Assembly: GCA_010692635.1 (NCBI GenBank)
Contig: JAAHGL010000007.1
Location: 86,049-129,932 of the forward strand
Source of the DNA: Symploca sp. SIO2C1
Lineage (GTDB): Bacteria; Cyanobacteriota; Cyanobacteriia; Cyanobacteriales; Coleofasciculaceae
DNA length: 43,884 nt
Direction of reading: 5' to 3'
Position 1 is the first letter of the stretch; each line of letters opens with the position of its first letter. The position numbers and the translations under genes are program-made. This document shows, piece by piece, positions 7,456 through 30,214 of this stretch. The notes beneath the pieces are model-generated. The model did no database searches. It was not told where the DNA came from and worked only from the letters and a program-made list of their open reading frames with translations.

Positions 7456-7541
7456 TAGAATCCCCTTGTTTTTTAGGAGCCCCCCAACTAGCGGCACGCC
7501 GCCCCCTACGAATGAAAGAAACAAGCCAAATTCTCTTCCCT

Positions 7542-7569: not shown

Positions 7570-7632
7570 TGTTTCTTAAAAGCATAACCGGCAAGATGCC
7601 AGTTCCATTGAACCCCTAAACTCCTGAACTTC

Positions 7633-8432: not shown

Positions 8433-8531
8433 AGAATATTTTACCTAGTAAAGGATACAGCGATTTCTGGAAACTATTTGACAAATTGCTCTTTTGCTGA
8501 ACTTGTCACCAATGTGATATCTAACATAATA

Positions 8532-9814: not shown

Positions 9815-10189
9815 TCAGAAAGTTTCCAATTCAGCATCTTCATATTGCAAAAGTTGCGATCGTACTTGCTGGTAGATCTCCAAGCTAACACCAGATAGAG
9901 GCTGACCTCTAGGGGAACGACAAATTTTGCGCGATCGCAAGATAGCATCAACTAGTGCAGCGCAGAAATAACCCACCAGCGACAAAAGGTCAAAAAGCTT
10001 ACGGTACAAGCTTTCTTCCCTTAGAGCCTCCTGCCTCCTAATCTGAAAATAGACGCGGGGACGCGGGGACGCGGAGACGCGGAGAGAGGGATTTTCATGC
10101 ATGGTGGTGAAAAAAAATTTTTCATTGGGACTGCTTTGTTTCTTGCAAGCAGTCTCCAGAATGCGATCGATTAATAGAGCATGTACCAT
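9815..10189 (-). CDS. Hypothetical protein, apparently invaded by repeats
   Basis: Open frame of 124 residues. The middle (about residues 19-60: FFFTTMHENP, SLRVSASPRPRV) is read from a dispersed repeat core and an octamer array. The first ~18 residues (MVHALLIDRILETACKKQ) and the last ~65 (LYRKLFDLLSLVGYFCAALVDAILRSRK..., ending LLQYEDAELETF) look like ordinary protein, with one hydrophobic segment. One reading is a small membrane protein that took up a repeat in frame; another is a chance frame. Family not recognised. Confidence 0.35.
   Translation of the reverse strand: MVHALLIDRILETACKKQSSPNEKFFFTTMHENPSLRVSASPRPRVYFQIRRQEALREESLYRKLFDLLSLVGYFCAALVDAILRSRKICRSPRGQPLSGVSLEIYQQVRSQLLQYEDAELETF
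10052..10083. repeat. Octamer array (4 x GACGCGGR)
   Basis: Four 8-bp units (gacgcggg twice, gacgcgga twice). A shorter copy of the same motif occurs at about 33354-33372. This is the clearest array with an 8-bp rather than 7-bp period. Confidence 0.85.
10091..10134 (+). repeat. Dispersed ~45-bp repeat, copy A
   Basis: Core TGGTGGTGAAAAA..TTTTTCATTGGGACTGC, also found at 17030-17072 (reversed) and 28643-28690. The centre is an A/T-rich near-palindrome (GTGAAA..TTTCA). A short tandem array lies on the left side. Confidence 0.8.
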
Positions 10190-10341
10190 CCTACCTGTAC
10201 CTTATTTATTCGGTTAACCAGTTGACTCATCTCAACTGAGAGAATTAGGACACTCTATTTTTTACTCCGTCTAAAGAACCGGTAGTTATGGTTTTTGTTA
10301 CATAACTTAATATTAAGGCAAATCAAGATTGTTGAACAGGA

Positions 10342-10357
10342 TGTGATCTACATCAAT
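10342..10357 (+). promoter_or_regulatory. Possible CRP-family (SYCRP1-like) binding site
   Basis: TGTGATCTACATCAAT matches 13 of 16 positions of the cyanobacterial cAMP-receptor-protein consensus TGTGATCTAGATCACA. It lies about 165 bp upstream of the exported pentapeptide-repeat gene. One half-site is perfect and the other partly degenerate, so it is a candidate only. Confidence 0.35.
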
Positions 10358-10519
10358 TAATAAAAGTAACTGTGGTCACACTGGGTTAAGGATGATTATC
10401 ACCCAACCAAAGAAAAATCATCACAGTTGTCGTCATACGTGAATCACGACTCTCCCAAAGACAATCTGGAATGATAATAACATCAAGTCCTAAAGGACAA
10501 GTTGTGGGAGGAAAAGGAT

Positions 10520-10990
10520 ATGAATAAGCAAATTTTTGGAGCAGCAGCATTCCTCATCTTGTGTGTTACAGCAGCACCAGCACAAGCAGAAAATCCTGCC
10601 CACCTCCTGCAGTTGCTCGAGACGAATAGCTGTCCTGGATGTGACTTAAGCGGTAGTAATTTAAGCCAAACCCAGTTGATTGGTGCAAATTTGAAGAATG
10701 CCAACTTAGAGGGGGCTAACTTAAAGGGAGCCAATTTATCTGAAGCTAATTTAGAGGGAGCACTGCTCAAGGATGCTGTCTTAGATAATGCCGATTTAGT
10801 ACAAGCTAACCTAACAGCAGCTAACCTAACCAATGCTAGTTTAGATTTTGCCTACCTCGATGGTGCGGAGCTAAGTAATGTGGTGTTGTCAGAGGAAAAC
10901 TTGTTAGGAACCGATTTTATTAATTTACCGGAAGCCCCACTCTATTCTGATACGATATCTTCTGAGGAAGCTAGTTCACTGCCCCGTTAG
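10520..10990 (+). CDS. Exported pentapeptide-repeat protein
   Basis: 156 residues from the ATG at 10520, chosen because GGGAGGAAAAG stands just upstream as a ribosome binding site and because it gives a clean signal peptide (MNKQIFGAAAFLILCVTAAPAQA, cleavage after AQA). The mature part opens with HLLQLLETNSCPGCDLSGSNLS, a common cyanobacterial start in which a Cys pair precedes the repeats. About 16 pentapeptide units of the form A(N/D)Lxx follow (residues 45-125), expected to form a right-handed beta-helix. The short acidic tail has no repeat. Likely in the thylakoid lumen or periplasm; function unknown. Convergent with chlN. Confidence 0.88.
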   Translation: MNKQIFGAAAFLILCVTAAPAQAENPAHLLQLLETNSCPGCDLSGSNLSQTQLIGANLKNANLEGANLKGANLSEANLEGALLKDAVLDNADLVQANLTAANLTNASLDFAYLDGAELSNVVLSEENLLGTDFINLPEAPLYSDTISSEEASSLPR

Positions 10991-11037
10991 GGACTTCCAA
11001 ATAAAAAAATAATTTCCTTCTTACTTGAAATAACTAT

Positions 11038-11073
11038 AGATGTGGAGACGCGATATATCGCGTCTCCACATCT
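11038..11073. terminator. Perfect 36-bp palindrome between convergent genes
   Basis: A perfect palindrome centred at 11055/11056 (core GACGCGATATATCGCGTC) lies between the pentapeptide gene (+) and the end of chlN (-). Its position suits a bidirectional terminator, although there is no long T-run on either side. It may instead belong to a dispersed family, since GGAGACGCG also appears at 10052-10083 and near 33360. Confidence 0.6.
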
Positions 11074-11095
11074 TGTTCAAACCCTATGCAAAGAT

Positions 11096-12563
<1,468 letters not shown>

Positions 12564-12602
12564 TATTACCAATAACAAATAACAAACAACTAATAACCAA
12601 TA

Positions 12603-13469
12603 TCAGACCATCATTAGGTCTAGTTCTTCTTCCTCAGTATTTGCTTGCGGCTTAGTAGGATTGAGGTAGAAGTCAGACAACAAGGAGAACAACTCTCGAT
12701 CTTGAGCATCATTGGGTACTACACCCTCTGGCTGACCTAAAATCTGGTCAGCAATATTTAGGTAGTAGTCGCAGACTGCTTGAAGAGATGGATCAGTTTC
12801 TGCCATTTCAAATAAAGTTTTGCCTTTAACTCGAGAGACGCGAATGTCTTCAATCAGGGGTAGAATCTCCAGTACTGGCATCGGTACTGCTTCAATATAT
12901 TTGTCGATCAAGTCACGCTTGGATGTGCGGTTACCAATTAAACCAGCTAGACGCAGCGGGTGGGTGCGAGCTTTCTCACGTACAGAAGCGGCAATGCGAT
13001 TGGCAGCAAACAGAGCATCAAAACCGTTGTCTGTGACAATCATGCAGTAGTCGGAATAGTTCAGAGGAGCAGCAAAGCCACCACATACGACGTCACCTAG
13101 TACATCAAAGAGAATGACATCGTACTCATCAAAGGCGTTAAGTTCTTTGAGCAGTTTGACTGTCTCACCAACGACATAGCCACCACAACCAGCACCAGCT
13201 GGCGGGCCACCTGCTTCGACACAATCAACACCAGCATAGCCTTTATAGATGACATCTTCAGGCCAGACATCTTCATAGTGGAAATCCTTGTCCTGAAGTG
13301 TATCGATAATAGTCGGAATCAGGAAACCCGTCAGAGTAAAGGTACTATCGTGCTTGGGGTCACAACCAATTTGCAGAACCTTTTTGCCACGCTTAGCTAG
13401 AGCAACTGAGATATTGCAGCTAGTTGTAGATTTACCGATGCCGCCTTTTCCATAAACTGAAAGTTTCAC
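12603..13469 (-). CDS. chlL: Light-independent protochlorophyllide reductase iron protein
   Basis: 288 residues, NifH-like. The P-loop is [15 protein letters not shown]. The cluster ligands are in [16 protein letters not shown] and [21 protein letters not shown]. The ATP-driven homodimer passes electrons to ChlN-ChlB. The start is a GTG at 13469-13467, with AGGAAG a few bases upstream and a second purine-rich stretch (AGGAGA) further up. The C-terminus ends acidic ([12 protein letters not shown]). Co-directional with chlN. Confidence 0.97.
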
Positions 13470-14000
13470 GCTTCCTTATCTCCTACTTATTTTGCTTAAA
13501 ACTTGAATCTTTTCTCTTAGCGTTGATTGAATTATTCACTAACTACCAAGGAAAAGAAAGAGTCTTTATGAAAACTAAAGGGTTTAAACACGAAATATTA
13601 TGCTTATTAAATTAATTAAAGCCTATTAATCCCTAAAATTTCATTTAAGTATCAAAAAATATTTTAATTTAATCTTTTGTTTATTTTTTAAATATAAATA
13701 AAAACAAAAAACAAAAACAATCATAGATTTCAGCAAATCAGCAATTATATATAGATGTTTACTAGAACTATGCAGCTCTTGATAGAACTGCGAATTCCTC
13801 TTCTAGATAACTCTTCAAGTCTTATTAACTAGCTTGAAGCCAGGTTGCCAGCTCGCAACTTTGGCTGAGCCATCTAGTCTTTGGCAAGTAGTGTAGAAGG
13901 TTTTGGTAACCAAGCAATGATGTTTGTAAAAAAAAATTAATTTTTTGGGGAGTAATGACCACTAGGATAAATAATCCAATAATTTTTTCCCCTAACTACT
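13470..14000. other. Long chlL upstream region, no gene seen
   Basis: About 530 bp. The part 13590-13760 is very AT-rich with A-runs and should include the chlL promoter and leader. The part 13760-13960 has mixed composition but no open frame of note, no tRNA and no strong terminator. An A-run, TTAATTTTTTGGGG, lies near 13930-13950. Confidence 0.5.
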
Positions 14001-14414
14001 CTAGAACTTAGCTTTCTGCTGTCGTGCTTCCTGGAGTTTAGCGATTGACCCTAGCAATGCCTCATAGTCTGTGATGGGTTTGGCAAAGAAATCATCTGCT
14101 TGGGAGACTTCCAAAAGATGTTGCTGCTCACTCAACATAGCGTAAGCGGTAATTAAAATAACTGGGATATCTGCTGTCTGCGGATCACTTTTAAGGAGAT
14201 AGGCAATGTCTGCTCCACTGACATCTTTAGCTTCCCACTGTGCAGCAGGTAAGTTGACGTCCATCAATACTATATCTATTTCTCCAGCCCGACAGCGCTG
14301 GAAAATTTCTCCTGGCTCATCTGTGATCGCAACCTGATGACCACCAAGGCGTTGAATCAGTTTAGCAGTTCCTCTGGCTAACAAATGATCGTCATCTACA
14401 AGTAAAATTTTCAC
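14001..14414 (-). CDS. Single-domain response regulator (CheY-like receiver)
   Basis: 137 residues, one receiver domain. Acidic pocket DDD near residues 6-8, phospho-acceptor Asp in DIVLMDVNLPA, Thr/Ser-type residue in VILITAYA, and Lys in DDFFAKPI. There is a small insertion after the acceptor strand (AAQWEAKDVSGAD), and the N-terminal helix carries LARGTAKLIQRLGGHQVAITD. No output domain. Transcribed away from the phototaxis operon, with 373 bp between the two starts; a role in that pathway is plausible but not shown. Confidence 0.88.
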   Translation of the reverse strand: MKILLVDDDHLLARGTAKLIQRLGGHQVAITDEPGEIFQRCRAGEIDIVLMDVNLPAAQWEAKDVSGADIAYLLKSDPQTADIPVILITAYAMLSEQQHLLEVSQADDFFAKPITDYEALLGSIAKLQEARQQKAKF

Positions 14415-14530: not shown

Positions 14531-14787
14531 GCCATGAGTAAATCTGAGACATTTGCAAATCTTTACGAAGTAAATGTGATATAATTAAAAAATTAAAAAA
14601 TTTTGTATCAATAAAATCACTTTCCGATAAAGTTGCCAGAAATACTCCCTGAACTATCTCTGGTAAAGGTATCCTCTATTAAAAAAAATGCCTTGGTATA
14701 TTGAGAGCATAAGTCACTTGTTTCAATTAACTTTACATAACTTCATACAAAAATTATTTTAATTAGTGACCATATAACATAGCTGTG

Positions 14788-16017
14788 ATGAAAAATACCT
14801 CAATAAGTTTAATGAAACTAGCAAAAGAATTAGATATCCTGAAGCTGGCTGAAGAATTAGGAGTCTTGAGCAAACAGAGGGCAACGGGCAAACTCATTGT
14901 CAGAAATCAAGCAGGAGAAGTTATACTCCACCTTTTCTATGGTAGGTTGCTCTATGCTACAGGTGGATTCCATTCAGTCAGACGCTGGCACAGAGCATTA
15001 AAGCAACATTGTCCTGATTGGGCTATCGAACCAGCACCCTTGTGGTGCAATAAGCCTTGGGAATATCAACTCCTCCATCAAGGCATTTGTGAAAATCAAC
15101 TAACAGTTCCGCAAGCCAAGGCAATAATTCGTAGCGTTGCTCTAGAAGTTTTGTTAAGTCTAGGTAACTACAAAGGCTTACAAAGAGAATGGGAGCCTAG
15201 TCCAGAAACCGATTTAGATATTTCATTGAGCTTAGCCTTATCCTACCTGGAAGTAGAACCGGTGCTAACGAAAGCAGTACAGATGCATCAACAATGGCAA
15301 GCTGCTGGTTTAGGAAACCTCAACCCAAACCTAGCACCAGTCTTAACAAGGCAGGTAGATTCTAAATCCCTTTCCGGTTGGGGGAAGTACCTCAATGGCC
15401 AGTTACCTTTGTGGGATATTGCTGGGCAACTCAAAAAATCGGTTATAGCTGTAACTCGCACCTTGCTACCCCTAGTTAACAAAGGACTGCTGCGATTCCA
15501 AGAAATTCCCGACCTACCAGTACCCATTAGCAAACAGACTAGTACTAGCCGTAGTCTAGTAGAAGTCAAGCCAAAGGTATCCTCTGAAAAACAGCCTTTG
15601 ATTGCCTGTATTGACGATAGTCCCGTGGTAGCTCAAACTTTAAAAAGGTTTTTGGTACCAGCAGGCTATCAAATCCTAAGTATTCAAGATTCGATGCGAG
15701 GGATTGCCCAACTTGCTCAACACAAGCCAGATTTAATCTTCCTAGACCTAATCATGCCAAATGCTAATGGCTATACTGTCTGTAAATTTTTGAGAAGTAC
15801 CCCCTTATTTCAGAAGACACCAATTATTATCTTGACTGGTCGGAATACCATCATTGATCGTACCCGTGCCAAGCTAGTCGGTGCTTCTGGTTTTTTAGGC
15901 AAGCCTCCAGAACAGGAAAAAACTCTCCAACTGATTGAGAAACATCTATGTGCTCTTCAGGAGGAGCCTGTCGCAAAAGACTTGGTATCAACAGAAGTGC
16001 CTAGTTTTGCATCTTAA
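14788..16017 (+). CDS. pixG: PATAN-domain response regulator (PixG/PatA-like)
   Basis: 409 residues from the ATG at 14788 (a GTG lies one codon before). The N-terminal ~240 residues form a PATAN-type module starting LAEELGVLSKQRATGKLIV and FYGRLLYATGGFHSVRRWHRALKQ. The C-terminal receiver (about 270-395) has CIDDSPVVAQTL, acceptor Asp in LIFLDLIMPNANGYTVCKFLR, IIILTGRN and a KPP loop. Relatives are PatA of heterocyst patterning, PixG/TaxP1 and PtxA. First gene of a five-gene set in the pix/ptx order, which decides the name. It should receive phosphoryl groups from the CheA-like kinase and act on motility output. Confidence 0.88.
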   Translation: MKNTSISLMKLAKELDILKLAEELGVLSKQRATGKLIVRNQAGEVILHLFYGRLLYATGGFHSVRRWHRALKQHCPDWAIEPAPLWCNKPWEYQLLHQGICENQLTVPQAKAIIRSVALEVLLSLGNYKGLQREWEPSPETDLDISLSLALSYLEVEPVLTKAVQMHQQWQAAGLGNLNPNLAPVLTRQVDSKSLSGWGKYLNGQLPLWDIAGQLKKSVIAVTRTLLPLVNKGLLRFQEIPDLPVPISKQTSTSRSLVEVKPKVSSEKQPLIACIDDSPVVAQTLKRFLVPAGYQILSIQDSMRGIAQLAQHKPDLIFLDLIMPNANGYTVCKFLRSTPLFQKTPIIILTGRNTIIDRTRAKLVGASGFLGKPPEQEKTLQLIEKHLCALQEEPVAKDLVSTEVPSFAS

Positions 16018-16105: not shown

Positions 16106-16471
16106 ATGGCGACATTATTGGTTGTGGAAGACAGTGCTACTGAGGCCAAGATATTGACGGACTGTTTACACCAATCAGGCTTCAATGTCATCAGTGTCAC
16201 AACAGCAGAGGCAGCAAAGGCAATCCTTGAGCAAAAACCCATTGATGCAGTTTTGCTAGATGTTGTCTTGCCCGGTCAAAGTGGCTTTGGTCTTTGTCGA
16301 GAACTGAAAAATCAACAAAAAACTGCTCATATTCCCATTATTATTTGCTCTAGCAAGTCAGAAAGAATAGATAAAAATTGGGGTATGCGGCAAGGAGCCG
16401 CTGCCTATATTACCAAACCTATTGACCCTGAAGAAATCGTGGAAACGGTTAGACAGTTTATCAATAGCTAA
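16106..16471 (+). CDS. pixH: CheY-like response regulator of phototaxis operon (PixH-like)
   Basis: 121-residue stand-alone receiver: LLVVEDSATEAKIL, acceptor Asp in DAVLLDVVLPGQSGFGLCREL, IIICSSKSER, AAYITKPIDPEEIV. AGAGGTGA ends a few bases before the ATG, a good ribosome binding site. It lies 88 bp after pixG and runs directly into the repeat tract before pixI. In the family, PixH/PilH-type regulators act beside PixG as phosphate targets of the same kinase. Confidence 0.9.
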   Translation: MATLLVVEDSATEAKILTDCLHQSGFNVISVTTAEAAKAILEQKPIDAVLLDVVLPGQSGFGLCRELKNQQKTAHIPIIICSSKSERIDKNWGMRQGAAAYITKPIDPEEIVETVRQFINS

Positions 16472-16577
16472 TTAAAAATTGAAAATTGAAAGTTGTTCAT
16501 AGCTAATGGACAATGAACAATGAACAATTTAACAATTTAACAATGAACAATGAACAATTAGCAATTAGCAATAACCA
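16471..16577. repeat. Heptamer-type repeat tract spanning the pixI start
   Basis: Units attaaaa, attgaaa, attgaaa from 16471, then gaacaat, ttaacaat, gaacaat and tagcaat units, mostly paired, to about 16577. Both in-frame ATG candidates for pixI (16513, 16543) lie within this tract. Confidence 0.8.
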
Positions 16578-17019
16578 ATTTCTAAGTTTTTCTCTCACTC
16601 CTGAGATTTGGGCAATTATACCTAGTAAGCAGTTAGCGACTATCATCAGTTTAGACCCTACTACCATTGTACCAATTCCCGATATGCCAGCACCTGTTGT
16701 TGGTGTTTTTCCTTGGCAAAGTGAGGTTTTATGGTTAGTTGATCTTGCCTACTTACTAGGTTTTGAACCGTTATTAACCCCAGAGTATCATCAGTCCAAA
16801 CGCAGTGTATTGAGAGTGACCAGCCTAGGGAAAACCGTAGGCTTGCTAGTTCACCAGGTTGGTCGGCTGATTAGGTGTAAAGCTGAGCAAATTCAGCTTT
16901 CGCCTACTAAAATGATTACTTCTACCCCAGCCCAATACATCAAAGGAACTATCCGCAATTATCAAGGGGAAACTCTGCTAATTGTTGATGTAGAAGCAAT
17001 TTTACAAGGTTTTGAATAG
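16513..17019 (+). CDS. pixI: CheW-like adaptor (PixI-like)
   Basis: 168 residues at most. The CheW-like domain begins about residue 23 (QFLSFSLTPEIWAIIPSKQLATII) and contains PAPVVGVFPWQSEVLWLVDLAYLLG, SLGKTVGLLVHQVGRLIRC and YQGETLLIVDVEAILQ. It couples the chemoreceptor to the CheA-like kinase. The first ~22 residues are asparagine-rich and read entirely from a repeat tract, so the true start is uncertain (16513 or 16543). The gene ends 11 bp before a dispersed repeat that opens the foreign segment separating it from pixJ. Confidence 0.87.
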   Translation: MNNEQFNNLTMNNEQLAISNNQFLSFSLTPEIWAIIPSKQLATIISLDPTTIVPIPDMPAPVVGVFPWQSEVLWLVDLAYLLGFEPLLTPEYHQSKRSVLRVTSLGKTVGLLVHQVGRLIRCKAEQIQLSPTKMITSTPAQYIKGTIRNYQGETLLIVDVEAILQGFE

Positions 17020-17150: not shown

Positions 17151-17585
17151 TCAGTTTTGGGAAGATTGATCTGATTGTTGTTGAAGTTGTTGGACTTGTT
17201 CAACTGATAAGCCGGTTCCCTCAGCTACTAGCTCAATGGATGAACCGAGCTCTAACAGCTTGAGCGCGATTTCTAGCTGTTTCTCTTGACCACCTTCTTG
17301 GCGACCTTCTTGGTGACCTTTTTGGTGACCTTTTTGGTAACCTTCAGCACTCACTTCCTGATAAAATCTGGTTTGTTTCCATTCTGTAAGTCCAAACATT
17401 ACTTCCAACTCTCTCCAAGGACGTTTAGGAAATTTATACACCAATGCTTGTTCTATATATAATTTTCTTCCCCATTCTAAATTCTTGCGTAGGTACTCAA
17501 TTGTGAACAGATAAGTGTAGAGAGTCGAGAGATTGAGGTTATTACTGAAATGGGGAGAAAAGGGAGAATTCGGCACAAGGGACAA
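17151..17585 (-). pseudogene. C-terminal fragment of an Rpn-like (PD-(D/E)XK) nuclease/transposase-related gene
   Basis: The 144-residue frame contains only the tail of this family: LYIEQALVYKFPKRPWRELEVMFGLTEWKQTRFYQEV, then (Q)EG/KG repeats (GHQKGHQEGRQEGGQE) and a short helical end. In complete cyanobacterial members a nuclease domain of roughly 170 residues precedes this; here it is missing. The first ~25 residues (MSLVPNSPFSPHFSNN) resemble nothing known and overlap the divergent CHAT frame. Probably a dead fragment. Confidence 0.65.
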
Positions 17586-18305
17586 ACACGATGGAAGCGA
17601 TCGCTAATTTGGTTGAGTGCAGATATCTTGGTTGTCTGGTTATTTGTGATCGCGCCAGCCCCAATAGTAGGACAAACTGATGATAACTATTCACCACAAA
17701 CAGAGTTATCATCAGGGGGTGTGGAAAGTAACACTATCAATGACCGACTCGATAGTAACAGTTATACAGCTGAGAACGGCAAATATTTTAACATTGGGGT
17801 AGAATACGGTTCTGGTACAAGCTCTCCTACCAAAATTACCAACCTAGAAAACCCCCTACTGCGTTCCGGTTTGGCTTTAGCTGGTATCAACCTGCGTCAG
17901 AGTGGCACCGAAGATGGGGTGCTGACGGCCCTAGAAACTGCTGGACTTAATTTGTCTGGTACAAAATTAGTAGTACTCTCAGCTTGTGAGACAGGGGTGG
18001 GAGATATTGCTAATGGTGAAGGGGTTTATGGTTTACGGCGTGCTTTGGTGATGGCGGGAGCTGAGAGTCAACTGTTTAGTCTGTGGAAAGTTGATGATAC
18101 GGGAACTAAAGACCTGATGGTGAAATATTACCAGCGTTTGCTCAACAATGAAGGTCGTTCTCAAGCCTTGCGACAGACGCAGCTAGAGATGCTCAGGAGT
18201 CAGAATTACCAGCACCCCTACTATTGGGCGGCATTTATCCCTTCTGGAGATTGGACACCAATTTGGGAATTGGGAATTGGGGAGAGAAAATATAGATTTT
18301 TTTGA
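17550..18305 (+). pseudogene. CHAT-domain protein with large internal deletion
   Basis: 251 residues. Residues ~20-45 (LIWLSADILVVWLFVIAPAPIVGQ) look like the signal/anchor of a larger protein. Residues ~100-245 are the end of a CHAT (caspase HetF-associated with TPR) domain: LRSGLALAGINLRQSG, LVVLSACETGVGDIANGEGVYGL, SLWKVDDTGTKDLMV, YYQRLL, HPYYWAAFIPSGDWTP. The catalytic Cys motif (SACETG) is present, but the His motif (ATHG type) and the TPR array are absent. The gene thus looks like the two ends of a TPR-CHAT gene joined by a deletion. It lies in the foreign segment inside the phototaxis operon, on the operon strand. Confidence 0.7.
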
Positions 18306-18448: not shown

Positions 18449-21400
18449 ATGACTCAAATATATAGACATACCAAGCGGCACGATAATCGGAATGATCATA
18501 GAGGAGGCGGTAATGTGCAGCACCAGATGGCTCCCGAATCAACTGTAGAAGAGACAGTTACTATCGTTCCAGTTCAACAGGAGTGGCAAGCAGAATTCGA
18601 GTCTCAAACAAACAGAAAAACTTTGGGTTTGAAGTCTAAAGCCACTGTTCTCGCCCAAGAGTTAAATGTCTGGCGCTCCAACATGGATCTGATGGCAGAT
18701 CAAATCCAGTCACTGCTCGAGAGAGAAGGAGCTGCTGCTGAGCGAGCGCACATGTTGAATGAGATTACCTCCCATATTCGGGAATCTCTCAACCCAGCTG
18801 ATATTTTCAATGCAACTGTTGAAGATGCCCGTCAAGCCCTTGGTGCAGATAGAGTAGTAGTCTATCGGTTTGACTCCCAATTGAACGGTAAGATAGTAGC
18901 AGAATCAGTTGAAGCAGGTTGGCCTGTAACCTTAGGAGTCAAAATCACCGATCCTTGTTTTGCTGATCGTTATGCCCAGGCTTATCAGAAAGGTCGAGTG
19001 CAAGCAACTAACAATATCTATGAGGGAGGCTTAACTGATTGCCATATTGCTCAACTCGAACCCCTGGAAGTAAAAGCCAACTTAGTCGCTCCGATTTTGA
19101 CAAACCAGAAGCTCATTGGTTTATTGATTGCCCATCAATGTTCTGAGCCAAGGAGTTGGACGGAATCAGAAATCGTTTTTTTCCGCCAATTAGCTATTCA
19201 AGTAGGCTATGCCCTCGATCAAGGTCTGCTACTCAAACGACAGCAAATTGCTGCCAAACAAGCTAGACTATTGAACGAAATTACCTTACAGCTGCGGCAG
19301 TTTCTTACCACTGAGGAAATTTTTGATGCAGTAGTGGAAGAGACTCGCGAGGCTATAAGTGCTGATCGGGTTGTAGTTTATCAGTTTGACCCCCAATGGC
19401 AAGGTACAGTGGTGGCAGAATCAGTCGGACGGGGTTGGCCTACAGCTTTGGGAACAACTATTGCAGACCCCTGTTTTGCTCAGCGCTATGTCAAACCCTA
19501 TTTGCGGGGACGAGTAAGTGCTACTAGAAATATTTATGAAGCAGGTTTAACGGAATGCCACCTCAAACAGTTAGAACCCTTTGCTGTCCAAGCAAATTTA
19601 GTTGCCCCAATCATCGCTCAAAAACAACTGCATAGTTTGTTGATTGTTCATCAATGTTCAGAACCCCGCTCTTGGAAGTCCTCAGAAATTGACTTTATCA
19701 AGCAACTAGCCACCCAAGTTGGTTTTGCCCTTGATCAGGTAACCCTCCTACAACAGCAACAAAACGCCATTGAGCGAGCCAGACGTTTAAATCAAATTAC
19801 CTCTCATCTGCAAAAATCCCTTAATCCAGAAGATATCTTTAACTCCGCTGTGGAAGATACTCAAGATATCTTACAGGCGGACAGGGTATTAGTTTATCAA
19901 TTTGATCCCTACTGGCAAGGCACTGTAGTAGCAGAAACAGTAGCACGGGGGTGGCCTATAGCCTTAGGATCACAAATTGCAGACCCCTGCTTTGCCGAGC
20001 GTTATGTTAAGTTCTATCTCAAAGGACGAGTAAAGGCGACGGAGAATATTTATGAAGCAGGTTTGACACAATGCCATATTAACCAGTTAGAGCCCTTTGC
20101 TGTCCAAGCAAATTTAGTCGCCCCAATTGTTGAGAACCAAAAGCTACATGGTTTGTTAATTGCCCATCAATGTTCTAGTCCGAGGAAATGGCAGCCGTGG
20201 GAAATTGACTTTATTCGGCAAGTTGCCATCCAAGTCGGTTACAACCTTGAACATTCCTTTTTGCTGCAACAGCAACAGACAGCTGCCCAGCAAGCCACAC
20301 AACTAGCTCAACAAGCCAGACAACTTAATGAGATTAGTGTCCGGATTTTGGAGTCCCTAGAGCCAGACCGAATTTTCCGCATAGCAGTAGATGAGTCCCT
20401 CAAACTCATGCAAGCGGATCGCATCGTCATCTACAGCTTCGATGAAAACTGGGATGGGGAAATTGTTGTGGAAACTGTCAAGCCTGGTTGGCCCCAAATC
20501 ATCAACATGGAAACCGATGTTCCTTGTTTCCCCCCTGACTATGTAGAACCTTACCGCAAAGGCAGAGTAAGTGCGATCGCAGATGTAACTAAAGCCGGTT
20601 TAACTTCTTGCCACGAAGAGCAACTAGGAAAATGGCAAGTTAAGGCAAATGTAGTAGTGCCGATTTTGTTGAAACAAAAGCTCTATGGTTTACTCGGTGC
20701 CCATCAATGTTCTGAGACAAGGGAATGGCAGGATTCAGAAATTGAGGTCTTTAAACAAGTTGCCCTGCAAGTCGGTTACGCCCTTGAACAAGCCCTACTG
20801 ATTAAACAAGTTGAACAAGCTCGCCAAACAGCAGAACAGGTTTCCATTGAGCAACGGCAACAAAAAGAAATGCTCCAAGACCAAATTGAAGCCTTCCTGG
20901 GAGAGATTGAAGGCTCCTTCTCTGGGGACCTAACAGTGCGAGCAAGAGTAACAGTAGGAGCAATGGGCACTGTAGCAGACTTTTTTAATGCCACTGTTGA
21001 AAGTCTGCAACAACTAGTGCGACAAGTGCAATCATCAGCAACTGTGGCAACCACCACTGCCAAAGAAAGTGAAAGTGACGTTAAGAGACTGGCTACTGAG
21101 GCACTGCGTCAAGCCGAAGCGATTAGCGCAGCTCTCAACCAAGTGCAAGTGATGGCAAATTCTATTCAAAGGGTTGCTGCTAATGCTCAAGCTGCCGAAA
21201 TTAAGGTACAGCAAGCTAATCAGACCCTCAAATCTGGTGATCTGGCAATGGATCGCACCGTTGAGGGAATTCTGGCAATTCAGCAAACAGTGGAAGCTAC
21301 TGCTCGCAAAGTAAAACGCTTAGGAGATGCTTCCCAGAAGATTTCTCGGGTAGTTAGCCTGATTAGTGACTTGGCAAACCAGACTAACCTTCTAGCATTA

Positions 21401-21859
21401 AATGCCTCAGTAGAAGCAACCCGTGCTGGAGAAGATGATCATGGATTTGGTTTAGTTGCCAATGAGGTGCGCAGCTTAGCAGAACAGTCTGCCAGTGCTA
21501 CTCAGGAAATTGAACAAATTGTCGAAGCCATCCAAGCAGATACTAACGAAGTAGTAACAGCAATGGAAACTGGGATGGAACGGGTGCTCACTGGTACTGA
21601 ATTAGTCCAAGAAACCCGTCAAACCATTGCTGACTCAACAGCGGTGAGTGCCACAATTCTACAGTTGATTGAAGAAATTGCTCAATCTGCCACAGCTCAG
21701 GCTCAAACTTCAGGGGATCTATCGAATACGATCAAGGAAGTGGCTGCGATCGCTAATCAAACTTCTGAACAATCTGTCACTGTGGCAAATTCATTTACTC
21801 AGCTACTAGGGGTAGCGGCCCAACTCCAAGATAGCGTCGCTCAGTTTAAAGTTAAGTAA
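18449..21859 (+). CDS. pixJ: Phototaxis chemoreceptor with four tandem cyanobacteriochrome-type GAF domains
   Basis: 1136 residues. After a ~100-residue helical N-terminus come four GAF domains (about 105-270, 275-445, 450-615, 635-800), a HAMP-like region (about 810-880) and an MCP signalling domain (about 880-1136; hairpin tip NQTNLLALNASVEATRAGE). Each of GAF 1-3 has a DPCF motif (Cys170, Cys342, Cys514) and a Cys-His (Cys198, Cys370, Cys542), the two-cysteine pattern of DXCF cyanobacteriochromes that bind a phycocyanobilin/phycoviolobilin chromophore. GAF4 has VPCF (Cys693) and Cys721-His. No transmembrane helix is evident, so the receptor may be soluble. Relatives are PixJ/TaxD1 and PtxD. 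No good ribosome binding site is visible; a heptamer array lies just upstream. Confidence 0.93.
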   Translation: MTQIYRHTKRHDNRNDHRGGGNVQHQMAPESTVEETVTIVPVQQEWQAEFESQTNRKTLGLKSKATVLAQELNVWRSNMDLMADQIQSLLEREGAAAERAHMLNEITSHIRESLNPADIFNATVEDARQALGADRVVVYRFDSQLNGKIVAESVEAGWPVTLGVKITDPCFADRYAQAYQKGRVQATNNIYEGGLTDCHIAQLEPLEVKANLVAPILTNQKLIGLLIAHQCSEPRSWTESEIVFFRQLAIQVGYALDQGLLLKRQQIAAKQARLLNEITLQLRQFLTTEEIFDAVVEETREAISADRVVVYQFDPQWQGTVVAESVGRGWPTALGTTIADPCFAQRYVKPYLRGRVSATRNIYEAGLTECHLKQLEPFAVQANLVAPIIAQKQLHSLLIVHQCSEPRSWKSSEIDFIKQLATQVGFALDQVTLLQQQQNAIERARRLNQITSHLQKSLNPEDIFNSAVEDTQDILQADRVLVYQFDPYWQGTVVAETVARGWPIALGSQIADPCFAERYVKFYLKGRVKATENIYEAGLTQCHINQLEPFAVQANLVAPIVENQKLHGLLIAHQCSSPRKWQPWEIDFIRQVAIQVGYNLEHSFLLQQQQTAAQQATQLAQQARQLNEISVRILESLEPDRIFRIAVDESLKLMQADRIVIYSFDENWDGEIVVETVKPGWPQIINMETDVPCFPPDYVEPYRKGRVSAIADVTKAGLTSCHEEQLGKWQVKANVVVPILLKQKLYGLLGAHQCSETREWQDSEIEVFKQVALQVGYALEQALLIKQVEQARQTAEQVSIEQRQQKEMLQDQIEAFLGEIEGSFSGDLTVRARVTVGAMGTVADFFNATVESLQQLVRQVQSSATVATTTAKESESDVKRLATEALRQAEAISAALNQVQVMANSIQRVAANAQAAEIKVQQANQTLKSGDLAMDRTVEGILAIQQTVEATARKVKRLGDASQKISRVVSLISDLANQTNLLALNASVEATRAGEDDHGFGLVANEVRSLAEQSASATQEIEQIVEAIQADTNEVVTAMETGMERVLTGTELVQETRQTIADSTAVSATILQLIEEIAQSATAQAQTSGDLSNTIKEVAAIANQTSEQSVTVANSFTQLLGVAAQLQDSVAQFKVK

Positions 21860-21903: not shown

Positions 21904-21952
21904 ATTAGCAATTAACAATTAAAAATTCACAATTAACAATGAGTAATGAACA
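21904..21952. repeat. Heptamer array containing the pixL start codon
   Basis: Seven units in register: attagca, attaaca, attaaaa, attcaca, attaaca, atgagta, atgaaca. The last unit provides the pixL ATG and the first two codons. Confidence 0.88.
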
Positions 21953-24900
21953 TTGATACCGATGACCAAGCTTATGAATTTTTTGTCCAAGAAGCCTTGG
22001 AACTGTTGCAACGCCTTGAAGAAGGTTTGCTGAGTCTCCAAACTGATCATGCCGTGCAAAAAATTCATGGACTGATGCGAGCAGCCCATTCAATCAAAGG
22101 AGGTGCAGCCTGTATTGGTTTAACCGGCATTGAAACTATCGCCCATAACTTAGAAAATGGCATTAGGGCATTGTATCAAGAGGAGACAGTCTTCGACTTG
22201 GAGTTAGAAGAGCTGCTCCTGAGAGCCTTCGATCATCTGCGAGCACCCATTATTGAACAGATTGAAACGGGTAAATATGATGCTCAGGCAGCAATAGAAA
22301 AAGCCAAGCCTGTATTTGAGCAGCTAGAGGAAAAACTGGGACATCCCCTAGCAGAATCAGCAGAATTGCCGGAAGTAGAAATGGAGGGAGATATTACCCA
22401 ATTTCTCTTTACTGAAGAAGTGACTCAGGGACTCCATCGCTGGGAAACCTTGTTAGCCAATCCCCAAGCTCCAGAAATTATAGAAGATATCAAAACCCAG
22501 GCAGAGGTGTTTGCCAGTCTGGGAGAAATGTTGAACTTACCAGATTTCGTTGCGATCGCTAATACTACTCTTCAGGCTTTGCAAGCTAACCCTCAAGCCC
22601 TTGTCACCATTAGTCAACTAGCATTAGCAGACTTTCGACAAGTACAACAGGCAGTTTTAACTGATGATCACAAACAGCCAATAAATCCTAGTGAAGCGTT
22701 GGTCAAACTGACTCACAAACAGGAAAAACACGACTATCCTCCCTTTAGTGTTCTCGCTCCTTCTTCAACCCCCAGTCAAGTCCCTGATGGCGATAGCACA
22801 CAAAAGGCGAACAGCGCACAATCTCCGTTAGTACCATCGCCTACTACCCAACCTAGTCAACAGACAGCTGTTCCTTCAGAATTGGCACAAACTAATGAGT
22901 CCTCAAGTACAACTGAAGATTTTTCTAATCCTATAAATAAGTCATCAGGATTCCAGTGGCTAGGTAACTTAATAAAAGGTTGGTTTCAAGGAAAACCGTC
23001 CCTAGAGACTTCATCTCTCCCTTCCCTATCAATAGAGGAGCCAACAAAGGCAGTTTTACCTGAAGCTGACAACTTGAACTCGACTGATTCTGAGAAATCA
23101 TCTGTCAAAATTCCAACCTCTATTCAGAAAGAAGTAAGCCAGGAAGAACCAACTGAGATACCCCTACCTCTAGTAGACAAATCTACCCCGACTGAGTCTG
23201 ATGACTTATCTGTCAACATTCCAACCTCTACTCAATCGACTTCCTCTGTCCCTATCCAGGAAGAAGTAAGCCAGGAAGAACCAACTGAGATACCTCTACC
23301 TCTAGTAGACAAATCTACCCCGGTTGAGTCTGATGACTCATCTGTAAAAATTCAACCAATAAGCAACAATCAACAACCAACTCCACCATCTTCTCCTGAG
23401 AATACCCCTTCCCTGACTAAAGAACAGGTTGAGCACAAGGAACAAGCAGAGGCAGCTGTCCGTACAAAAGACAGCTCAAAACGACCTCTAGGGGTACGAG
23501 TCGATATCAATCGCCTTGATATAATTAATAATTTAGTAGGAGAGTTAGTAACTCAAGATAATAGTTTTCTACTACAAGTTCAACAGAATAAAGCAACATT
23601 AGAGTCTTTGAAAAGATGGTTTCATCGCTTCAATAAACTAGCAAATAAACTGCAAAATATTCAAAATATTCCGCCTGAAAGTCAAATTAACAAATTAGAA
23701 GATTCTGGTTTTTTCAATGAACAGACTCCAAATTATCCAGAACAGATTATAGTCGAAGAAATTGCTCAACTAGGAGAAGTTATTCAAGATATAGAATTAC
23801 TGCATCGACAAAATCAACAAATTATCAAAAAAAGGCAACAAACCCTCAAACAAGTTCAAAATAATCTTCTGCAAGCCCGAATGCTAAATGTAGGAGAATT
23901 ACTGAACCGCTTTCCGCGGACGATTCGGGATCTGTCAGCCAAACAAAAAAAACAGGTCAAGTTAGATTTAATTGGTAAAAACACCTTAATTGAAAAGGCA
24001 ATTCTAGAAAAGCTTTACGATCCATTAGTGCATTTAGTCAGGAATGCTTTTGACCACGGTATTGAATCTCCGGAACTACGGAAACTCTCCGGTAAATCTC
24101 CTCAAGGAACAATTACTCTTAAAGCTTACAAACGGGGAAATTATACTTATATAGAAGTGGAAGATGACGGTCAAGGAATTGATATAGAAAAAATTCGCTT
24201 CACTGCTGTAGACAAGAAACTAATTTCTAGTAATGAAGCGGCACAGATGTCAAAAAATCAATTATATAATCTACTATTTACGCCTGGTTTTTCCCTCTCG
24301 CAGGAAATTAGTGAATTATCGGGTCGAGGGATGGGTTTAGAGGCAATGCTTCTGCAAATTGAGGCATTGAAGGGGAGTGTCACTGTTATGTCTGAGTTAG
24401 GTCAAGGCACAACCTTTACCTTGCGTTTGCCCTGGACTTTAACAATTACTAAACTGTTAGTGTTTCGGGTAAAAGGTAATTTACTAGCGATTCCCGTAGA
24501 TACAATTACCAGCATTTTGTCAGTTACGGCTAATGATATCAAAAGTCGTGCTCGTGTTAAGGGACACCAAGTTTATAACTGGCAAGGAAAAATAGTGCCC
24601 ATAGTCCAGCCTATTTTTTCGGCTTACCATTATCCATCTAGATCACTAACTCCAATAGCTCTAGCGGGAAGTCTACCCCTACACTATAGACAACGGACAG
24701 TTACCACCCGGAAGCATCCTAAAACTCAGCAACCTTCTGGAAAAGTGATGCTACTGCTAGTTTCTCAGGGTTCTGATACAATTGCCCTGAAAATTGACCA
24801 AATGTTGATGGAACAGGATTTGGTTATTAAACCTTTTGATAAGGCACTGACCGCACCATCTTACTTCTATGGCTGCACAATTTTGGGGGATGGTCGTCTA

Positions 24901-25473
24901 GTACCGGTGTTAGATGGACCAGCTTTGGTAGAACGAGTATTAAGTGTAGACATTAATGAGGCAACGCCATCACCAACAGCCCCAATTAGTCAGGAGCATC
25001 CCTTAGTAACATCAGCTCGATCCCTTAGAGAGCAACGAGGAAGTCTTGAAAAACTTGAGACAATAGCGAGTCAGATTAAACCTGCTCCCAAACCAACTCT
25101 ACCAACTATTCTAGTCATTGATGATTCCCTCACCACTCGTCAAACTATCTCTTCAACCTTGCAAAAAGCTGGATATCCTGTTATTCAAGCCCAAAATGGT
25201 GCAGATGGACTAGCCCAACTTCAGCAACATCCTCAGATTCAGGGAATCATCTGTGATGTAGAAATGCCCCAAATGAATGGTTTTGAATTTCTCCGTAGCT
25301 GTCGCAAGCAATTTCCAAAAGATGAGCTACCAATTTTGATGCTAACATCTCGCACGAGTGAGCGATATCGTCAGTTCGCTAAGCAGTTGGGCGCTAATAG
25401 CTATTTAACCAAGCCTTATTTAGCTCAGGAATTAGTTACTACTTTAAGTAATTGTCTCAGGCTAAATTCCTAA
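21946..25473 (+). CDS. pixL: CheA-like hybrid histidine kinase (PixL-like)
   Basis: 1175 residues. The Hpt domain comes first, with phospho-accepting His48 in AAHSIKGGAACIGL. A second helical module covers about 140-245. A long Pro/Ser/Thr-rich linker (about 260-510) contains an internal duplication. The kinase core follows: LNVGELLNRFPRTIRDLS, HLVRNAFDHGIESPE (N box), VEDDGQGID, GRGMGLEAM. Then come a CheW-like domain (about 840-1010) and a C-terminal receiver (acceptor Asp in GIICDVEMPQMNGFEF, Lys in SYLTKPY). It takes signals from PixJ through PixI and phosphorylates PixG/PixH. Last gene of the set, 86 bp after pixJ. No Shine-Dalgarno sequence is seen; the start lies in a heptamer array. 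Confidence 0.93.
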   Translation: MNIDTDDQAYEFFVQEALELLQRLEEGLLSLQTDHAVQKIHGLMRAAHSIKGGAACIGLTGIETIAHNLENGIRALYQEETVFDLELEELLLRAFDHLRAPIIEQIETGKYDAQAAIEKAKPVFEQLEEKLGHPLAESAELPEVEMEGDITQFLFTEEVTQGLHRWETLLANPQAPEIIEDIKTQAEVFASLGEMLNLPDFVAIANTTLQALQANPQALVTISQLALADFRQVQQAVLTDDHKQPINPSEALVKLTHKQEKHDYPPFSVLAPSSTPSQVPDGDSTQKANSAQSPLVPSPTTQPSQQTAVPSELAQTNESSSTTEDFSNPINKSSGFQWLGNLIKGWFQGKPSLETSSLPSLSIEEPTKAVLPEADNLNSTDSEKSSVKIPTSIQKEVSQEEPTEIPLPLVDKSTPTESDDLSVNIPTSTQSTSSVPIQEEVSQEEPTEIPLPLVDKSTPVESDDSSVKIQPISNNQQPTPPSSPENTPSLTKEQVEHKEQAEAAVRTKDSSKRPLGVRVDINRLDIINNLVGELVTQDNSFLLQVQQNKATLESLKRWFHRFNKLANKLQNIQNIPPESQINKLEDSGFFNEQTPNYPEQIIVEEIAQLGEVIQDIELLHRQNQQIIKKRQQTLKQVQNNLLQARMLNVGELLNRFPRTIRDLSAKQKKQVKLDLIGKNTLIEKAILEKLYDPLVHLVRNAFDHGIESPELRKLSGKSPQGTITLKAYKRGNYTYIEVEDDGQGIDIEKIRFTAVDKKLISSNEAAQMSKNQLYNLLFTPGFSLSQEISELSGRGMGLEAMLLQIEALKGSVTVMSELGQGTTFTLRLPWTLTITKLLVFRVKGNLLAIPVDTITSILSVTANDIKSRARVKGHQVYNWQGKIVPIVQPIFSAYHYPSRSLTPIALAGSLPLHYRQRTVTTRKHPKTQQPSGKVMLLLVSQGSDTIALKIDQMLMEQDLVIKPFDKALTAPSYFYGCTILGDGRLVPVLDGPALVERVLSVDINEATPSPTAPISQEHPLVTSARSLREQRGSLEKLETIASQIKPAPKPTLPTILVIDDSLTTRQTISSTLQKAGYPVIQAQNGADGLAQLQQHPQIQGIICDVEMPQMNGFEFLRSCRKQFPKDELPILMLTSRTSERYRQFAKQLGANSYLTKPYLAQELVTTLSNCLRLNS
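23101..23350 (+). repeat. Internal duplication in the pixL linker
   Basis: A segment encoding EVSQEEPTEIPLPLVDKSTP occurs twice, starting at 23131 and 23263 (132 bp apart), nearly identical in DNA. The flanking SVKIPTS/SVNIPTS/SVKIQP echoes mark the unit edges. The recent duplication lengthens a disordered linker and keeps frame. Confidence 0.85.
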
Positions 25474-26090: not shown

Positions 26091-27809
26091 ATGTCCGAGC
26101 AATCCAAACCAGCACAGCAAAGTACTTCAACCTTGGAAGAAATCCGCGCCGCGCGGTTAGAGAAAGTTGAACAACTTAAAACATTAGGTCTTAATCCTTA
26201 TGCTTATCGTTGGGAGTCTACCCACCATGCTGCAGAACTCCAGGAAAAATTTGCTGAGTTAGCTAATGGTGAAGAAATAAATTTGGAAGTTGCGATCGCA
26301 GGTCGCATCTTAGCACGGCGCGTCTTCGGCAAACTAGCTTTCTTCAATCTTCAGGACGAAACAGGCACAATTCAGCTGTATTTGGAGAAGAAACGCATCG
26401 GTACCAAGATGGCAGATGTACCTAATGCCTTTAACCACCTCAAGCAGTTGACAGATATTGGGGACATTCTGGGAGTTAAGGGAACTATTAAGCGTACCGA
26501 AAAAGGGGAATTATCAGTATATGTCAGCGAATACACCATGCTGACAAAATCTCTGTTACCCTTACCGGATAAGTGGCATGGTCTTACAGATACAGAAAAG
26601 CGCTACCGTCAGCGTTATGTTGACCTGATTGTTAATCCTACTGTACGGGAAACCTTTCGCCGCCGTGCTCAAATCACTGCAGCTATTCGCCGCTATTTAG
26701 AAGAGCAAGACTTTATTGAAATCGAGACACCCGTTTTCCAGAATGAACCAGGAGGAGCTGATGCTCGTCCTTTCATTACCTACCACAACACCCTAGAGAT
26801 GGAGTTGTACCTGCGGATTGCTACAGAATTGCACCTCAAGCGGTTAATTGTTGGTGGATTTGAAAAAGTCTTTGAGTTAGGCAGAATTTTTCGTAATGAG
26901 GGAGTTTCGACTCGCCACAATCCTGAATTCACAATGATTGAGGCTTATCAAGCCTATGCTGACTACCATGATATGATGCAGCTAACGGAGAATCTGATTA
27001 GTCATGTTGCTCAAACCGTCTTAGGAAGCTTAAAAATTACCTATCAAGGTGAAGCAATTGATTTAACTCCCCCTTGGCGCAAGATAACGATGCATGAATT
27101 GGTAAAGGAGCAAACAGGTTTAGATTTCCAGCAGTTTGAAAACCTTGATGCAGCCAAAGCTGAGGCTCGGAAAGTAGGAGTTGAGAACTTAGAAGAATGT
27201 CAATCCCTTGGTAAACTCCTCAACGAAACCTTTGAGCAGAAGGTAGAGGAAACCCTAATTCAGCCTACCTTTGTACTGGATTACCCTGTCGAAATTTCTC
27301 CCCTTGCCAAGCCTCATCGCTCGGAGTCTGGTTTGGTAGAGCGCTTTGAACTGTTCATTACCGGACGAGAGACGGCAAATAGCTTTTCTGAGTTAACTGA
27401 TCCTATCGATCAAAGAACCCGCCTGGAAGCTCAAGCAGCGAAGAAAGCTGCTGGAGATTTAGAGGCTCAAGGCGTTGATGAAGATTTTCTGACAGCTTTA
27501 GAACATGGTATGCCTCCTACAGGCGGTTTAGGGATAGGCATCGATCGCTTAGTGATGCTACTAACCGATTGTGCCAGTATTCGAGATGCGATCGCATTTC
27601 CGTTGCTCAAGAGTTCGAGCGTAGTGATTAAATCTTTTGACTATGATGAACCGACTCAAATCCTGCGAGTGGAATTCAATAGTGGCAGTGTTTACAAGTA
27701 TCAAGATGTACCCGATAGTGTATATCAAGGTCTAAAGAGTGCGCCATCTGTAGGTCAATATTTTAACTCCCATATTCGGGAAAAATACGGTCATGACCGA
27801 GAGTTTTAA
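26091..27809 (+). CDS. lysS: Lysyl-tRNA synthetase, class II, with KTSC tail
   Basis: 572 residues. OB-fold anticodon-binding domain (about 50-165: [31 protein letters not shown]). Class II core with motif 2 ([26 protein letters not shown]) and motif 3 ([19 protein letters not shown]). It charges tRNA-Lys in the cytosol. After the usual end (IAFPLLK, about residue 506) there is a ~65-residue extension, [19 protein letters not shown] and [15 protein letters not shown], matching the KTSC domain known from the C-terminus of some cyanobacterial and other LysS proteins; its role is not established. Followed by a hairpin at 27842-27880. Confidence 0.97.
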
Positions 27810-28720: not shown

Positions 28721-29944
28721 CTAAGGAGCTAAAGCATTACCGCGCAGTAAGCTACCAACAGTTTTGGCAGTAATCTTCATCTGAATCAGAGGATTTGCTG
28801 GTACGACTGTTTTGTAGAGATAGCTATCGAAGGTGAGCTTCTGAACATCCTTATCAGCACACATTTCTACAAAAGCTTCACGGGTAGCATCGGTGCGATA
28901 GAAGACTCTTTGCAGAATATCCAGTACCTTATAAGTCATGCCGTACTTCTTATCCCAGCGCTTCAAATAAAGCTTGAGATCATCTTCTGTGGGAATGCGA
29001 GTACCACCGTTGGAGGTTTCGACAATGGTTTCGGCACACATTCTGGCTGATTTCGCAGCAAAGTAAATCCCTTCACCAGAAGACTTAGTAACTGTACCAG
29101 CGGCATCTCCTACTAAAGCTACCCTACCCCGAACTCGACGTGGTCTGGGATGCTCTGGAATGGGATGAGCTTCTACTTTGATGATTTCTCCCCCTACCAG
29201 CTTACTAGCCGCACGGGCGCGAATACCAGCTTGCAGCTGTTTGATTTTGGCTTGGTTCACCTTCATGGTGCCAGTACCAACAGCAACGTGGTCATATTTA
29301 GGGAACACCCAAGCGTAGAAGTCTGGGGAAACATCATCACCTACATACATTTCTGCTAGGTCTTCGTAATATTCCATCATATTACCTGGCAGACGAATCC
29401 GCTCTTGGAAAGCGATCGCATAATTGTAATCACCAGCATCAATTGCCTTGGCAACCCGAGAATTGGCTCCATCGGCTCCAATTACCAAGTCTACCTTCAG
29501 AGTTTTTTGCTCTCCCTTGGCACTACCGTTGGAATGATCAGCATAGTGAAGGGTATAAGGTTCGGTGTTACTTGTCGGAATTTCTAGTTTATGGACTGTG
29601 CCGTTAATTAGGTTAGCTCCTAACTCAGCAGCACGATTACGCATGAAGCCATCCAGCACTTCACGGCGACACATACCAATATATTCATCTTCTTTGATGA
29701 GATTAATATCGACCTCGACATTAGAGGGCGAGATCATCTTCATCTTTCTTACTCGCCGATCAATAATTTCTGGCGGTAGTTCAAACTCGCTTACCATACA
29801 CAGCGGAATTGCACCGCCGCAGGGTTTAGCATTATCGAGCTTGCGCTCAAATAGATAAGTTTCGATTCCAGCTTTTACCAAAATCTCGGCAGCCGAAGAA
29901 CCTGCAGGTCCTGACCCAACAACTGCAACCCTTAGTGCTGGCAT
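28721..29944 (-). CDS. chlP: Geranylgeranyl reductase
   Basis: 407 residues from the ATG at 29944-29942 (MPALRVAVVGSGPAGSSAAEILVKAG); a start 12 codons upstream is possible but less like the family. The FAD/NAD-binding GSGPAGSSAA loop, FERKLDNAKPCGGAIPLCMV, MCRREVLDGFMRNRA, VIGADGANSRVAKAI and RGRVALVGDAAGTVTKSSGEGIYFAAKSARM are all characteristic of ChlP. It reduces the geranylgeranyl chain to phytyl for chlorophyll, tocopherol and phylloquinone. Single gene with its own upstream region of about 270 bp. Confidence 0.96.
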   Translation of the reverse strand: MPALRVAVVGSGPAGSSAAEILVKAGIETYLFERKLDNAKPCGGAIPLCMVSEFELPPEIIDRRVRKMKMISPSNVEVDINLIKEDEYIGMCRREVLDGFMRNRAAELGANLINGTVHKLEIPTSNTEPYTLHYADHSNGSAKGEQKTLKVDLVIGADGANSRVAKAIDAGDYNYAIAFQERIRLPGNMMEYYEDLAEMYVGDDVSPDFYAWVFPKYDHVAVGTGTMKVNQAKIKQLQAGIRARAASKLVGGEIIKVEAHPIPEHPRPRRVRGRVALVGDAAGTVTKSSGEGIYFAAKSARMCAETIVETSNGGTRIPTEDDLKLYLKRWDKKYGMTYKVLDILQRVFYRTDATREAFVEMCADKDVQKLTFDSYLYKTVVPANPLIQMKITAKTVGSLLRGNALAP

Positions 29945-30101
29945 GTTGTCTCCCAATCTTTTTAGAGTTACGGAGTGCATCGTATCATGTCCCTTTGGCT
30001 GATCTGAGCAATACCTGGGAATATGGGGTCAAGTTGAAATACAGCTTAACAACTTTGCGCAATATAAGTTCATAATTACTGGTGTAAGCGATCGCTTTTT
30101 A

Positions 30102-30143
30102 GGGAATAGGGAATGGGGAATGGGGAATTGGGAATTGGGAAAT
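30102..30143. repeat. Heptamer array (6 x GGGAAWK-like)
   Basis: Units gggaata, gggaatg, gggaatg, gggaatt, gggaatt, gggaaat, with identical neighbours in pairs, in the gap between chlP and the aldo/keto reductase. Confidence 0.88.
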
Positions 30144-30214
30144 AATCCAGCAGTTAACAATATACGAAAAAGCAGATACCATGATCCTTACTCCTGCCAT
30201 CTGCCTCCTTTACA

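Follow-up and report, generated by a model that had tools for sequence, protein, structure and literature searches.

A receptor gene in a pix-type operon

The stretch of DNA analysed here (the window, 43,884 nucleotides from a contig of the cyanobacterium Symploca sp. SIO2C1) carries a gene for a putative phototaxis receptor of the PixJ type. The gene order around it is PATAN-REC, REC, CheW, receptor and CheA-REC, which places the receptor in the PixJ position of an operon of the pixG-H-I-J-L type. The protein in the PixG position contains a DUF4388 domain, which we take to be PATAN-like. The receptor reading frame starts with ATG and encodes 1136 amino acids, in which Pfam recognises GAF in four stretches (PF01590, E 3.4e-75 for the protein as a whole) and, closer to the C-terminus, the signalling domain of methyl-accepting chemotaxis proteins (MCP; Pfam MCPsignal). 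The linker between GAF4 and the MCP domain is putatively HAMP-like; the same stretch was found again in relatives, and Pfam reports no HAMP in the receptor at E up to 5, this linker included. The gene shows two features of the PixJ type: cyanobacteriochrome (CBCR) GAF domains are followed by an MCP domain, and the operon also encodes PATAN-CheY, CheY, CheW and CheA, components that the tax1/pix cluster is described as having (PMC5812497). The coordinates of the features are given in Table 1.

The initial annotation, made from the letters of the sequence, described four tandem two-cysteine bilin GAF domains, and this description holds. GAF1 to GAF4 can be aligned with one another without gaps over 160 residues, and the cysteine positions that it listed (170/198, 342/370 and 514/542 for DPCF plus Cys-His, 693/721 for VPCF plus Cys-His) are all exact. 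The closest solved chain by sequence is the GAF domain of TePixJ (3vv4), with an E value of 1.3e-45 for the whole protein, where the best stretch is GAF2, and of 2e-40 for the GAF4 piece. When the receptor is aligned with TePixJ, the DPCF and Cys-His of the latter line up with those of GAF1-4, and both cysteines of each domain occupy TePixJ chromophore positions. The pocket of TePixJ includes C494, C522, H523, Q526, N535 and D492 (PMC6955287). Counted along the alignment, the first five residues recur unchanged in each of the four GAFs, and D492 recurs in GAF1-3 only. In GAF4, Val691 aligns with Asp492 and Asp690 stands one residue before it, which confirms the displaced Asp that had been proposed for this domain. 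An additional cysteine is found in an HQC motif of each GAF (231, 403, 575 and 754). GAF1-3 therefore have both the Asp-Xaa-Cys-Phe cysteine and the canonical cysteine by which DXCF cyanobacteriochromes are defined (PMC11284453), whereas GAF4 has both cysteines and, with Val691, lacks the Asp.

GAF1-3 are 62-67% identical among themselves and 46-51% identical to GAF4. We make no claim of a close tandem duplication of GAF1-3; their mutual branching is unsettled in the GAF tree. An AlphaFold2 model built from eight sequences gives GAF2-4 predicted local distance difference test (pLDDT) values that, taken in blocks of ten, mostly fall between 70 and 90; long helices join the domains, and the best listed structural match of the model is TePixJ 4glq (Z 25.9, root-mean-square deviation 1.7, 149 aligned residues). 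A heptad reading of the spacing between the GAF cysteines (172, 172 and 179) was dropped, because relatives are spaced otherwise (174, 173, 172, 168 and 173 in L071).

Table 1. Features of the receptor gene and its operon in the window
Feature	Coordinates	Strand	Source
DUF4388 and receiver protein, PixG position	14785..16017	+	Pfam
Single receiver domain, PixH position	16106..16471	+	
CheW, PixI position	16513..17019	+	
TPR-CHAT gene remnant between CheW and receptor	17550..18305	+	
PixJ-position receptor gene: four CBCR GAF domains, HAMP-like linker, MCP signalling domain, no transmembrane segment	18449..21859	+	
Remnant-like match to pre-membrane motif of anchored PixJ relatives, residues 59-69	18623..18655	+	
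Match to N-terminal HAMP end and following coil of anchored PixJ relatives, residues 70-102	18656..18754	+	
GAF1, residues 103-258, DPCF C170, Cys-His C198	18755..19222	+	
GAF2, residues 275-430, DPCF C342, Cys-His C370	19271..19738	+	
GAF3, residues 447-602, DPCF C514, Cys-His C542	19787..20254	+	
GAF4, residues 626-782, MCP-proximal, DVPCF C693, Cys-His C721, Val691 replacing pocket Asp	20324..20794	+	
HAMP-like linker, residues 801-860	20849..21028	+	
MCP signalling domain, residues 925-1101	21221..21751	+	Pfam
CheA with C-terminal receiver, PixL position	21946..25473	+	

The shifted acid of GAF4 and its lineage

Motifs were counted in 169 GAF domains, each 120 amino acids or longer, from the window and 40 fetched stretches, shorter, split pieces having been dropped. 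Both cysteines are present in 69 of the 169, and the first letter of the motif is D in 59 of these, V in five, T in two, A in two and N in one. The nine rows with V, T or A come from the last GAF of nine receptors, three of the Symploca type and six (G104, G088, G136, G120, G047 and G070) from a genus of another family, here called g40. All nine have an Asp or Glu one residue earlier, so that each of them carries [D/E]-[V/T/A]-P-C-F in its MCP-proximal GAF; the rows come from two genera and are not independent of one another. When GAF4 plus the linker was used as the query against 388 genomes of the class, DPCF was found in 27 of the 29 best loci besides that of the window, and the other two belong to g40. 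In the GAF tree, GAF4 groups with the last GAFs of the g40 receptors, three of which were included, in a single clade (six rows, Shimodaira-Hasegawa-like approximate likelihood ratio test 100). The pattern EVPCFP, searched at the DNA level, matched nine of 386 genomes, in one of which (G088) it falls inside a GAF domain of the CBCR type; since this pattern omits the Asp, Thr and Ala forms and the window itself, it is no measure of how rare the lineage is.

Comparison of three orthologs of the window's genus, that of the window included, revealed purifying selection on all four domains: in each of the three pairwise comparisons, every GAF has a ratio of nonsynonymous to synonymous substitution rates (dN/dS) of 0.03-0.11, and twelve of the twelve GAF cysteines are kept. 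GAF4 contains 11 variable columns of 157, compared with 71 of 468 in GAF1-3 together (Fisher p 0.009), and it also differs from GAF2 (p 0.02) and GAF3 (p 0.004) taken singly. The six g40 receptors show the same tendency, the mean pairwise identity of the last GAF being 0.939 as against 0.664-0.817 in the other five GAFs. The MCP-proximal GAF is therefore probably the conserved input of these receptors, and the upstream array differs between the two groups.

Two observations count against this picture. The difference in conservation between GAF4 and GAF1 alone is not significant (p 0.13). In addition, none of the 30 upstream GAFs of g40 retains the DXCF cysteine, and 18 of the 30 are without the canonical one, which means that such domains can be kept without acting as full photosensors. 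The second of these lends weight to an alternative in which only GAF4, perhaps with GAF1, is a working sensor and the remaining GAFs are retained for geometry, as spacers or for dimerisation. Within the window's genus, variable columns are most numerous in GAF2 (24 of 156) and GAF3 (28 of 156), and in PixJ1 of Synechocystis the chromophore is described as bound by the second GAF only (PMC5812497). However, no cysteine and no DPCF motif of GAF1-3 has been lost in any of the three orthologs, with dN/dS of 0.07-0.11, and we consider this alternative unlikely.

It could also be supposed that the pocket Asp of GAF4 has decayed, so that the domain would bind bilin with little or no photochemistry and GAF1-3 would do all the sensing. 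In two CBCRs of the insert-Cys type, variants of the Asp at the corresponding position are described as binding phycocyanobilin with reduced photoconversion (PMC5240096), which agrees with such a loss and also leads us to expect that GAF4 differs in yield or colour. However, the absent Asp does not look like decay, because the shifted acid is present in nine of nine lineage members examined and, in both groups, this domain is better conserved than any other GAF; conservation is no proof of photochemistry, and on this evidence we regard decay as quite improbable and the shifted acid as a conserved trait of a small lineage. The text of PMC5240096 that was available does not describe the shifted-acid motif of GAF4, which is no proof of its absence from print.

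Absence and probable loss of the membrane anchor

The initial annotation also stated that no transmembrane helix is apparent, and a Kyte-Doolittle hydropathy scan, which is not a trained membrane predictor, bears this out. The best 19-residue segment of the receptor scores 1.32 and lies within GAF1, and the maximum before GAF1 is 0.24. A gene-start artefact that hides a span is ruled out by the five codons that separate the ATG from an in-frame stop, and the open frames of the two orthologs (1150 and 1140 amino acids) are too short for an additional hairpin. The hydropathy maximum before GAF1 is at most 0.54 in all nine lineage members, compared with 2.13-2.60 in all five anchored relatives. 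These values and frames make it improbable that the receptor is still membrane-bound or membrane-associated, via a partner or a missed upstream segment, even though a hairpin lies at the same place in the anchored relatives; a peripheral association is conceivable.

In a tree of the linker and MCP domain with 35 rows, among which there is no named PixJ and no PtxD, the nine span-less receptors form one clade (100/95). This clade lies inside a 14-row clade (100/100) together with five anchored receptors. The anchored GAF-MCP receptors of the 14-row clade adjoin cheA in all three examined (L083, L084 and L085), and in L079. The smallest number of changes in anchor state on the tree is two, the other change being that of eight multi-GAF soluble receptors, and the window receptor falls in a different clade from the soluble receptors with 5 to 12 GAFs (PtxD, again, not being among the rows). 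Soluble and anchored receptors were separated by a single hydropathy cut-off of 1.8, close to which lie L101 (1.79) and L068 (1.76); the 1.76 stretch of L068 is outside the N-terminus, where the value is 0.45. L075, which is cut by a contig end, was given no anchor state.

The anchored relatives have a membrane part, then a HAMP domain (above the Pfam cut-off in three of the five, below it in one and unlisted in one) and then GAF1. In the window receptor the hairpin and the first part of this N-terminal HAMP are absent, and a Pfam search of residues 1-105 (E up to 1) gives no HAMP. Residues 70-102 match the HAMP end and the following coil with a score that none of 1000 shuffles reaches, as is also the case in two g40 members, and residues 59-69 match the pre-membrane motif with a score that again none of 1000 shuffles reaches. 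Because the HAMP end and a probable pre-membrane motif are kept, the anchor was probably cut out internally. For the window's genus internal excision is the simplest reading of these matches, and for g40 the support covers the downstream side alone. The receptor appears to descend from an anchored ancestor and to have lost its anchor secondarily.

Several points weaken this argument. The pre-membrane remnant is not significant in two g40 members, in which 416 and 680 of 1000 shuffles reach the score, and the shuffle counts flatter the match, because the stretches were picked after the alignment had been seen. In addition, the 35-row tree omits seven long or odd rows of a first tree (L094, L086, L103, L104, L091, L096 and L077), of which L077, L096, L103 and L104 score as soluble. 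In the first tree L077 is placed with the large multi-GAF soluble group, L096 among anchored rows, and L103 and L104 beside the anchored L086. With these rows included, the number of anchor changes would probably be greater than two. The nine-row clade itself is starred in both trees, with and without the omitted rows.

Predicted signalling and related systems

We consider it probable that the window encodes a cytoplasmic PixJ-type blue/green phototaxis receptor of a lineage that has lost its membrane hairpin and the first part of the HAMP, with GAF4 as the conserved input to the MCP domain and the upstream GAFs as a variable, modifying array. Each GAF would bind a bilin derived from phycocyanobilin via its Cys-His cysteine, and the genome has three bilin reductase matches. 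The DPCF cysteine of GAF1-3 would form a second, light-breakable bond, making these domains photoswitches of the blue/green type; DXCF domains typically isomerise phycocyanobilin to phycoviolobilin and switch between blue and green (PMC11284453). GAF4 would also be a two-cysteine bilin domain, in which Val in place of the pocket Asp, together with the earlier acid, should alter protonation, colour or photoconversion yield. From the GAF switches the signal would run down a helical spine to the MCP tip and then, via CheW, to the CheA kinase that the operon also encodes; this kinase would signal to type IV pili through CheY and PATAN-CheY proteins. A more specific version of this proposal is tentative: GAF4 may be a distinct type of two-cysteine CBCR, with the pocket Asp moved to the preceding residue and chromophore protonation altered, and it may serve as the conserved output switch of a lineage made cytoplasmic by hairpin excision, in which interchangeable upstream arrays set the working range.

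Three further points weigh against this proposal. The full AlphaFold2 model is weak (mean pLDDT 58, predicted template modelling score 0.33), and its MCP part, with pLDDT below 50, is unusable. According to a 2021 report cited in PMC9090330, PixJ is not responsible for phototaxis in Nostoc punctiforme. In Phormidium lacuna, PixJ is described as a light-induced down-regulator of photophobotaxis (PMC13383048). The role of PixJ in movement is disputed, and it may consist in down-regulation of sensitivity.

Multi-GAF receptors of the PixJ and PtxD kinds are already known, so that the core of the finding is not new. PixJ proteins are on record in which between one and five serial GAFs precede the MCP domain (PMC13383048), and some cyanobacteriochromes are without membrane spans (PMC5812497). 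Domains, pocket alignment, operon and relatives uphold the initial annotation in its reading of an anchor-free PixJ-type receptor with two-cysteine CBCR GAFs; given these precedents, neither several GAFs nor the lack of a span is unusual in itself. As the initial annotation proposed, the serial chromophores might widen the range of colours or intensities sensed, and the receptor may form soluble clusters. The new points are the shifted acid of GAF4 and the loss of the anchor.

PixJ1 (TaxD1) of Synechocystis, like the window receptor, combines CBCR GAFs with a C-terminal MCP domain in a pix/tax1-type cluster. However, it has two membrane spans and two GAFs, one of them chromophore-binding (PMC5812497), whereas the window receptor has four two-cysteine GAFs and no span. 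TePixJ shares the DXCF/Cys-His pocket with the window GAFs. PtxD (NpF2164) of Nostoc punctiforme also has serial CBCR GAFs on an MCP domain and is encoded in a che-type cluster; it contains seven GAFs, two of which have the second cysteine link (PMC5812497), in contrast to the four two-cysteine GAFs of the window. Two further proteins are likened here by description: the PixJ homologue WP_087710364.1 of Phormidium lacuna, which like the window receptor has four GAFs and an MCP domain, and the PixJ of a motile Synechococcus elongatus, which has five GAFs (both PMC8794177). The latter strain is printed as PCC 7924, which on our own reading is UTEX 3055. The g40 receptors resemble the window receptor in their operon position (four of four examined), in the absence of a span (six of six) and in a last GAF with [D/E][V/T/A]PCF and CHEEQLGKWQVKANVVVPIL. 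They differ in having six GAFs, the upstream five of which are without the DXCF cysteine and three of these five also without the canonical one.

A receptor that has kept its PixJ position and operon while losing the hairpin is a natural test of whether the anchor is needed. Likewise, the shifted acid makes GAF4 a natural variant for probing the role of the DXCF Asp in colour and yield.

The same operon order was found in all four g40 genomes whose neighbourhood was examined, of the six with a receptor. The TPR-CHAT remnant between the CheW and receptor genes matches, at its start and end, a gene of 1223 amino acids at the same place in the sister genome L080, and its middle is gone. The one CheR and the one CheB match of the genome are both on contig C68, away from the pix operon, in a region of about 8 kb (6146-14262) that also contains two adjacent bilin reductase genes. 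With one CheR and one CheB match in the genome, methylation-based adaptation of the receptor is possible.

The same genome contains two large MCP proteins that are span-less by hydropathy, one of 2624 amino acids with 12 GAF stretches (L087 6790-14664, contig C426) and one of 1836 amino acids with 9 (L088 6416-11926, contig C290); some of these stretches are probably halves of one split domain. L074 (2042-10504) encodes an anchored MCP of 2820 amino acids with eleven GAFs, ten of which have LTPCH and one LNKCH. Among phage records, 22 matched the receptor and none covered 80% of the protein. Plasmid records gave one match that covers at least 80% of it, a relative in three pieces on NC_019760.1 of Allocoleopsis franciscana PCC 7113 (29155-31152, 90% coverage, 48% identity). 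Elsewhere in the window, positions 26091-27809 encode a D/K/N-type class II tRNA synthetase that carries a KTSC domain at its C-terminus, and positions 33445-36657 encode an NHL-repeat protein of 1070 amino acids with weak metallopeptidase-like and CARDB matches.

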